Source of the DNA: Spartobacteria bacterium
GTDB taxonomy: Bacteria; Verrucomicrobiota; Verrucomicrobiia; Chthoniobacterales; UBA10450
Reading direction: 5' to 3'
Length of the DNA: 45,981 nucleotides
Assembly: GCA_003167555.1 (NCBI GenBank)
Contig: PMSN01000028.1
Span: 1-45,981 of the forward strand
A program made the translations under genes and the position numbers. This document shows, one piece after another, positions 44,356 through 45,981 of the stretch (position 1 is the first letter of the stretch; every line of letters begins with the position of its first letter). The notes beneath the pieces were generated by a model. The model was not told the origin of the DNA. It made no database searches and saw only the letters and a program-made list of their open reading frames with translations.

Positions 44356-44883
44356 TTAGATTCGCGCGTCTCGCGGTCGCAGGGTCAACAGTGAGGACCG
44401 ACCTCTTTTTCTCCCGCTCCGGTCATACTGGTAGCCGTCCGCCGTCCCCCAATCTCGCTGTTCATACCGGTGCCGCCCCAGCGCATCGAACCCATAGTCA
44501 AAGCGGCCCATCTGCCAATTGGCAAAGTAATCGCTTTGGCCCCGCACCCGGTTCAGCTCATCCACGTCGTATTCGGCGTGCGCGCCGGAGAGCACGGTGC
44601 GCGCCGTGCGGTTCCCGCTGGCGTCGTAGGTATATCGGACCACTGGAGTGTTATAATACCCGCCAAAGATGGCCGGGTCGAGCTTGATGTTATCGAGCTG
44701 GTTGCGCTGGGTGTAGCCGTAAAGGAACTGGTAACCCTGAGGGTAAATGAGCCGGCTTCTGTTCCCATCCGCATCGTATTGGTAAACCGTGCTTCGTTGG
44801 GCCCAGAGGCCGTAGCTCTTGATCGTCTCGGTCTCGCTCGTGTGACGATTGGTCATTGATCGCGCGTTGACCGTTTTGGCCAC
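44356..44883 (-). CDS. Orphan Rhs-repeat fragment
   Basis: A 175-residue open frame (GTG start) made of YD/Rhs repeats: YQYDADGNRSRLIYPQGYQF, YTYDASGNRTARTVL, YDVDELNRVRGQSD and FDYGFDALGRHRYEQR. Complete Rhs proteins have over a thousand residues and end in a toxin domain after a DPIG-like core; this fragment has neither the shell nor a tip. An in-frame stop 24 bases above the GTG means no nearby extension. It lies on the same strand as the Rhs toxin C-terminus at the window edge and overlaps the 3' end of the small Sel1-like gene. It is best read as a displaced Rhs piece left by recombination between toxin cassettes; expression is doubtful. Confidence 0.65.
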   Translation of the reverse strand: MAKTVNARSMTNRHTSETETIKSYGLWAQRSTVYQYDADGNRSRLIYPQGYQFLYGYTQRNQLDNIKLDPAIFGGYYNTPVVRYTYDASGNRTARTVLSGAHAEYDVDELNRVRGQSDYFANWQMGRFDYGFDALGRHRYEQRDWGTADGYQYDRSGRKRGRSSLLTLRPRDARI

Positions 44884-45311
44884 CGGTAACGACTGAAATC
44901 TCGTTCAGGATCCCGTCCGTTGCTGAACATATGCTCGGTCGAAATGTAAAGAGCCCCTCTTCCTCGCTTCGCAACAGATTGGAGCATTATTCGCGCTTCC
45001 TCACTTCCGCCTTTTCGTGCTATCGAATACCAGTGCAATGCTACGTCCTCCAGCTTGGTGATGGCGGGCCCACGCATTCCACGCTTTTGCTGTCCGGCTG
45101 CCTCAAGGACGTAAAACGTAGCGACGTAAAATGCCGCTTCCGGGTTTCCCTTTTTTGCCTCAGCAAGGTAGATCGCCGCAGCGGCCAGAGCACCTGATTG
45201 CCTATACGTTTCTTCCGCTCGCGAAAAACGGTCATCAGATGTCGCCGTGCGACAAGTGACAAGAAGCAAAGCGAACAAACCAAAAAGAATAGTCCTAGCA
45301 GGAGAGTGCAT
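44853..45311 (-). CDS. Small exported Sel1-like protein, possible immunity protein
   Basis: A 152-residue protein with an export signal (hydrophobic core ILFGLFALLLVTC). Cys20 could be lipidated, although Thr before it is atypical for a lipobox. Two Sel1/TPR-like helical pairs follow (AALAAAAIYLAEAKKGNPEA pattern; ALHWYSIARKGGSEEARIML). I chose the ATG at 45311, which gives a proper signal peptide; the longer frame from 45380 overlaps the toxin gene. It begins 10 bases after the Rhs toxin stop, the place where polymorphic toxins usually carry their immunity gene, so an immunity role is a fair inference. The last 20 residues (RDFSRYRWPKRSTRDQ) overlap the Rhs fragment in another frame and may be a non-native tail. 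Confidence 0.65.
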   Translation of the reverse strand: MHSPARTILFGLFALLLVTCRTATSDDRFSRAEETYRQSGALAAAAIYLAEAKKGNPEAAFYVATFYVLEAAGQQKRGMRGPAITKLEDVALHWYSIARKGGSEEARIMLQSVAKRGRGALYISTEHMFSNGRDPERDFSRYRWPKRSTRDQ

Positions 45312-45321
45312 GGCGATTTTC

Positions 45322-45981
45322 TTAATGCCCGAATGGAATTGTATTATCATACCAACTGCGACTTGGTTGTGCAGGATCATTCAAACGCACACCGTTTCGC
45401 AATAGAAACCGATCTTCGACGATCATCGCCTGCTGTTCGATGCCGTATTTTTCGAATTGGGTTTGACCCCCTACTGGAAGGTAATCATACCCACCGTGCG
45501 TTAATTTCTCATAAGCAATTCTAAGCGTCGACATTCCGTGCTGAAACTGATATACATGCATCATCTCGTGAACAAAAATCGCCTTGTTGCCTAAAGAAGC
45601 CTTGCTGAAATCGGAGCGATAACCGGGGTCCTTGGAATGAAAATAAAGTCTTCCATTCGGTGTCATTGCCCTATCTCTGGGTTGACCTGGAACATACGAG
45701 CGGTGAAAATTTTTTACCGCCTGATAGTCAATGCTGTCGCCATACTCAGACTTCGCCAACTTTACCTCGCCGCTTGTTAGCGATCGCCCCCCTTTGTTCC
45801 CCTCGTTCTCGGACGAAATGGCTTTAGCTCCGCCTCCACTCACATCTCCGCCGCCCATTCCGGCCGGATACTCCTGGTATTTTTTTAGAATCTCATCGAA
45901 TGACAAAAGAGAATTGCCTTGCATGAACATGAGTCTGCTCCAAGCGAAGTCCACCGAGAGCAACCCCGTCGGATCGCTGCG
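45322..45981 (-). CDS. Rhs polymorphic toxin, C-terminal metallopeptidase domain (partial)
   Basis: The 3' end of a longer gene whose 5' part lies beyond the right edge; 219 residues are visible. The first residues read RSDPTGLLSVDFAWSR, like the junction after an Rhs core. After a Gly-rich linker (MGGGDVSGGG) comes a compact domain: SLTSGEVKLAKSEYGDSIDY, FHRSYVPGQPRDRAMTPNGR, LYFHSKDPGYRSDF, then VHEMMHVYQFQHG with the zinc-binding HExxH motif at about 138-142. YGIEQQAMIVED carries a candidate third ligand. A similar domain occurs in Rhs/VgrG-associated effectors of type VI secretion. It is followed after 10 bases by a small exported protein. I call it an effector peptidase; its target is unknown. 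Confidence 0.78.
   Translation of the reverse strand, partial: RSDPTGLLSVDFAWSRLMFMQGNSLLSFDEILKKYQEYPAGMGGGDVSGGGAKAISSENEGNKGGRSLTSGEVKLAKSEYGDSIDYQAVKNFHRSYVPGQPRDRAMTPNGRLYFHSKDPGYRSDFSKASLGNKAIFVHEMMHVYQFQHGMSTLRIAYEKLTHGGYDYLPVGGQTQFEKYGIEQQAMIVEDRFLLRNGVRLNDPAQPSRSWYDNTIPFGH

Follow-up and report, generated by a model that had tools for sequence, protein, structure and literature searches.

A VgrG2b-type peptidase tip and a probably exported, likely Sel1-like candidate partner at the 3′ end of a probable Rhs-type gene of a Spartobacteria bacterium

The window analysed here is the whole of a 45,981-base contig (C10) from a Spartobacteria genome (G000) of 4.2 Mb that is 98% complete. At its right end an open frame of 219 aa on the minus strand (45322-45981) runs off the contig, and behind it lie a small gene encoding a hydrophobic N-terminus and a fragment with Rhs repeats (Table 1). 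The frame starts with RSDPTGLL, and sequences of this type are the usual end of an Rhs core. Over the junction and the linker, identity to the corresponding site in two Rhs frames of a same-genus genome (G024) is 47% and 36%, the linker is 47% identical to residues 1514-1566 of a 1735-aa Rhs protein of the genus, and comparable linkers were recognised by eye in other tips of the genus. Therefore, the contig stops at the boundary between core and tip. The first-pass annotation, which had placed the end of an Rhs-type gene with a C-terminal HEMMH domain here, was confirmed by the frame running off the contig, its first residues and the position of the motif. The Rhs assignment comes from the DPxG junction and the linker, both of which match Rhs proteins of the genus; the core itself is past the contig end, beyond reading because the window is the entire contig. 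The contig end showed no detectable overlap with any other contig of the genome, and a search for the missing 5′ part with the same-genus Rhs protein as query gave N-terminal matches only in separate loci on two other contigs (C6 and C16). Misassembly at the contig end was considered; the match of the linker to same-genus Rhs proteins makes it less likely.

Table 1. Features at the right end of the window, and exported genes located before Rhs genes at other loci.
Feature	Location	Strand	Evidence
Decayed Rhs mid-core remnant (homology 44416-44799)	44356..44883	-	RHS_repeat; residues 912-1040 of 1735-aa Rhs
Small exported, likely Sel1-like protein, 152 aa, candidate immunity protein	44853..45311	-	ORF and start; hydrophobic N-terminus; weak Sel1 hits; A3 profile match
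VgrG2b C-ter-type gluzincin peptidase domain (tip)	45325..45810	-	phmmer to PDB 6h56, E 8.6e-27; family alignment A1
E182 in YGIEQQA, predicted third zinc ligand	45436..45438	-	Invariant E in A1; aligned to YNIEQQG of 6h56
HEMMH zinc-binding/catalytic motif, residues 138-142	45556..45570	-	H, E, H invariant in A1; aligned to HEMTH of 6h56
Rhs core end (RSDPTGLL junction) and pre-tip linker	45811..45981	-	Frame residues 1-57; remaining Rhs gene beyond contig end
Exported gene before Rhs	L008:7089-8012 (-), L010:5021-5689 (+), L105:9307-9951 (-), L106:8970-9527 (-); also L184, L185, L187, L189, L190		

For the tip, the Pfam models gave next to nothing (Peptidase_M91, E 0.07). The effector domain of Pseudomonas aeruginosa VgrG2b (PDB 6h56) was matched over residues 28-197 in a phmmer search of the PDB sequences (Table 1), and alignments to this domain and to the family (A1) indicated that the zinc ligands H138, H142 and E182 and the catalytic E139 are kept. 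In VgrG2b, the HExxH motif is formed by H935, E936 and H939, and E983 is the third zinc ligand in the crystal structure (PMC6899460); E182 of the tip aligns with E983. Judged by its sequence, the tip is a clear homologue of the C-terminal domain of VgrG2b, and this homology, together with the conserved catalytic and zinc-binding residues, upholds the earlier proposal of a peptidase toxin at the tip of the Rhs gene. The VgrG2b domain, an antibacterial effector, exerts its toxicity when located in the periplasm but not when in the cytoplasm, and the HExxH residues are required for it (Wood et al. 2019, PMC6899460). It is bound and neutralised by PA0261, the exported product of the next gene, and this immunity protein needs its signal peptide (PMC6899460). 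Thus, the reading of the tip as an envelope-acting peptidase is well founded in the homology to VgrG2b. Action in the envelope or the periplasm, previously deduced from an exported partner, is strengthened by analogy with the periplasm-only toxicity and signal-dependent immunity of that system. We infer toxicity for the tip and immunity for its partner.

The likely ATG of the small ORF is located at 45311, 10 bases past the stop of the Rhs gene, and the protein begins with MHSPARTILFGLFALLLVTC; as read from the sequence, its N-terminus is hydrophobic with a stretch ending in LLVTC. No Pfam family was matched, Sel1 models included, even at E values up to 10, and in a scan of NCBIfam the model NF045617 (putative T6SS immunity periplasmic lipoproteins) remained unmatched. 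Matches to PDB sequences were weak (best E 0.024), and each was to a Sel1/TPR protein or a designed helical-repeat protein. For the mature protein, a single-sequence AlphaFold2 model had a mean pLDDT of 59; its helix pairs reached about 70-80 in the repeat region, and the C-terminus was poor. Sel1-type proteins made up most of the ten best structural matches of this model, with Z up to 8.2, a value that is middling for helical repeats. These weak but consistent matches of sequence and model make the label Sel1-like likely, short of proof. No homologues were found in plasmids or viral contigs, the 83 genomes of the family gave marginal matches only, and BLASTP against the partners on C6 or at the locus L024 gave nothing useful. 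The last codons of the ORF overlap the frame of the Rhs remnant. The small exported Sel1-like gene described at first sight was hence retained in its spacing and its hydrophobic N-terminus, but the Sel1 label found no support in Pfam and draws on weak PDB and model matches. As a candidate for immunity, the exported protein is favoured by its position, by its hydrophobic N-terminus and, by analogy, by the export of the VgrG2b immunity protein.

The fragment behind the small gene matched Pfam RHS_repeat with 24.8 bits and was 41% identical to the middle of the core of the same-genus 1735-aa Rhs protein (E 4e-14); it has no start, core end or tip. Since it covers the middle of the core only, the fragment is evidently a decayed leftover of an older Rhs gene and not a displaced tip. 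The YD repeats noticed in it are real, but its description as a displaced tip had to be dropped. A true displaced tip is present elsewhere in this genome (L009, G000:C25:64352-74351), on an additional core-end fragment whose tip (DPTGLTSEIAAD) differs from that of the Rhs gene before it. That Rhs gene has a HEPRH tip and an exported downstream gene, and a frame resembling an IS110-type transposase is located upstream, near the contig end.

The GC content was 0.483 in the tip and 0.529 in the small gene, and the 600-base mean of the remaining contig was 0.588 (s.d. 0.023). GC3 was 0.51 and 0.48, respectively, and reached the host-like values of 0.74 in the neighbouring band-7 gene and 0.73 in the Rhs remnant. 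Because of these shifts in GC and GC3, the tip and the small gene fit a putative two-gene cassette imported into an older Rhs locus. The exchange of tips suggested for this locus gains support from the foreign base composition of the pair and from the tandem core-tip units that recur in the genus. The peptidase domain was found in one of the 83 genomes of the family, namely this one (two matches in G024 cover the junction and the linker alone), and the tip in one of 387 sampled Verrucomicrobiota genomes, again this one. The peptidase matches seen in GTDB species genomes and plasmids belong to Pseudomonadota. Copies in sphingomonads and their relatives are without a consistent partner, and the sphingomonad homologues are seldom accompanied by a T6SS; enterobacterial and prophage copies have an exported partner. 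In the tree, the tip was placed in a well-supported set with alphaproteobacterial copies (sphingomonad group) and the loci L024, L096 and L077, and the enterobacterial T6SS cargo formed a separate set. Which sequence is the exact sister of the tip is uncertain, as the row that groups with the tip forms a long branch. In the genome G021, whose band-7 gene is 92% identical, no Rhs gene was found beside band-7 in the stretch read. The annotated Hint domain protein encoded by a giant frame on an Agrobacterium plasmid (L021:3989-8402) has a VgrG2b-type peptidase right at its beginning and not at the C-terminus.

A Sel1-like gene as the general partner of the peptidase, as envisaged in the first-pass annotation, did not hold: such a gene was recognised at two (L024 and L096) of about 100 loci examined. 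In Actibacterium (L024) and in a gammaproteobacterial MAG (L096), a VgrG2b-type peptidase is followed, after gaps of 28 and 13 bases, respectively, by a protein with a hydrophobic N-terminus. These two partners are 38% identical to each other, and the model of the L096/L024 partner showed repeat-like helices at low confidence (pLDDT 54), with no useful structural match. Moreover, Sel1-like exported proteins forming a family (A3) are encoded behind three Rhs loci of the genus (C6 of this genome, G024:C42 and G026:C17). Against the A3 profile the window protein scored 27.9, and none of 150 shuffles exceeded 19.6. Among 79 other downstream proteins the highest score was 25.1, so that the margin is smaller over real sequences than over shuffles, and the relation of the window protein to the A3 family is suggestive. 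Against the L096/L024 pair it scored 21.6, with a shuffle maximum of 21.2, which makes a relation to these partners marginal. At the loci of the peptidase on viral contigs, short exported partners of other sequence were present in 16 of 19 cases according to our own reading, and NF045617 was matched by four of the five plasmid partners scanned (Enterobacterales, Psychrobacter). Since the partners in T6SS and prophage loci are mostly unlike in sequence, an exported partner behind the peptidase is, as far as these sequences tell, general in weapon loci, and a Sel1-like partner is not. Among the plasmid hits, the name 'type IV secretion protein Rhs' was given no weight as a sign of a fusion to Rhs, as those opened were short standalone peptidases.

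Core-end matches in the genus numbered 31, distributed over five of eight genomes, and six pairs located about 1.4-2.3 kb apart represent tandem core-tip units. At about 17 of the 27 junctions read, the next gene encodes a strongly hydrophobic N-terminus, as counted by eye with a crude measure. Those complete Rhs proteins of the genus whose sequences were read carry Sec-type signals at their N-termini, and no PAAR was noticed in them. TssC/VipB, the T6SS sheath gene, was not found in this genome. It was detected in one of the eight genus genomes (G025:C37:11151-12053, E 4.5e-138), which also has two Rhs core ends; the presence of a T6SS thus varies within the genus. The missing TssC and the Sec-type N-termini of the genus Rhs proteins speak against the PAAR or type VI adaptor considered for the upstream part of the gene. 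T6SS delivery of the window toxin by its owner is therefore unlikely, and by analogy with its relatives the window Rhs protein is probably exported via Sec. A small exported gene, mostly proline-rich and with a similar C-terminal part, was observed directly before many full-length Rhs genes of the genus (Table 1) and could encode a carrier or secretion partner of the Sec-exported Rhs proteins. Additionally, two further Rhs genes of this genome have peptidase-like tips, each followed by an exported protein, namely L008:2077-7092 on the minus strand of C6 (HESGHNMGLVDF) and L010:5344-10548 on the plus strand of C16 (HEAGGHGYR).

The closest known system is VgrG2b/PA0261 of P. aeruginosa (PMC6899460), which shares with the window a homologous C-terminal peptidase, the HExxH motif with a distal Glu and a small exported protein encoded close by. 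However, the carrier in the window is Rhs and not VgrG, a T6SS sheath gene is lacking in its genome, and the partner looks Sel1-like and stands outside the NF045617 lipoproteins that follow the enterobacterial copies. Like these lipoproteins, the small protein is an apparently exported product of a gene located behind a peptidase of this family, but it is not matched by the family model. For Pedosphaera parvula, also of the Verrucomicrobiota, the combination of Rhs repeats with a PVC-type metallopeptidase as the C-terminal toxin domain has been described (Zhang et al. 2012, PMC3482391). By description, this arrangement of Rhs repeats with a peptidase in the toxin position resembles the window, whereas no immunity partner is listed for that class in PMC3482391. 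Where they are cited in PMC13133936, the Tli5b immunity proteins of PldB (Tle5b) are said to carry Sel1-like repeats and can by this description be likened to the window protein; their toxin, however, is a T6SS-delivered phospholipase. No description of a VgrG2b-type Rhs tip combined with an exported Sel1-like partner was found in the literature, and the parts are of known kinds. New are the assignment of the tip to the VgrG2b family, its occurrence in a genome where no T6SS sheath gene was found, and the exported Sel1-like candidate immunity partner.

Taken together, we consider it probable that the locus holds the 3′ part of a polymorphic toxin gene of the Rhs type, whose product is probably exported via Sec and in which an imported cassette, encoding a VgrG2b-type zinc peptidase and an exported Sel1-like helical-repeat protein, took the place of the former tip. 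The Rhs shell would carry the peptidase out of the producer cell, and the tip would be set free in or near the envelope of a neighbouring cell and cleave an envelope protein there. In the producer's own periplasm, the Sel1-like protein would bind and block the peptidase. A bolder version is put forward tentatively and with some doubt: in Verrucomicrobiota, a Sec-exported Rhs shell may deliver a VgrG2b-type periplasmic peptidase toxin without any T6SS, and the toxin may be neutralised by exported Sel1-like proteins of a class whose members also provide immunity to further Rhs tips of the genus and to some standalone peptidases.

The small ORF could instead be an unrelated exported or decaying gene behind a genuine toxin, with the true immunity gene elsewhere or absent. 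This is rather unlikely, even though the ORF has neither a Pfam family nor a confident homologue, its last codons run into the frame of the Rhs remnant and the sphingomonad peptidases have no consistent downstream partner, since the 10-base spacing, the hydrophobic N-terminus, the foreign composition shared with the tip and the way exported genes recur downstream of tips in the genus, and downstream of peptidases of this family, all link the two genes. It is less likely still that the tip serves in self-processing, releasing the Rhs tip, or as a housekeeping or secreted protease, perhaps as in Sphingomonadaceae, and is not an antibacterial toxin. PVC-type metallopeptidases often release the toxins of polymorphic toxin proteins (PMC3482391), and the rarity of a T6SS and the lack of a consistent partner gene among the sphingomonad homologues would suit such a role, but the tip closes the protein, at the site where toxins are located, and no further domain comes after it that it could release, its closest characterised homologue is a toxin, and an exported gene follows it. 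Delivery of the gene product as a T6SS effector whose PAAR N-terminus was lost past the contig end appears highly improbable: the peptidase family is indeed common among T6SS effectors, yet no TssC/VipB was found at 98% completeness, only one of eight genus genomes has one, and wherever a complete Rhs protein of the genus was read, its N-terminus was a Sec-type signal, with no PAAR noticed.

With the locus read as an Rhs toxin gene that received a VgrG2b-type cassette, a characterised envelope toxin, hitherto a T6SS effector domain in Pseudomonadota, turns up at an Rhs locus in a different phylum and is accompanied there by a different exported partner. If this is true, at least two kinds of immunity protein hold one peptidase in check, and this would be of use in locating the inhibitor surface and then the envelope substrate. 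The reading also draws attention to the Sec-exported Rhs loci of Verrucomicrobiota, whose toxins may as a group act on the cell envelope.
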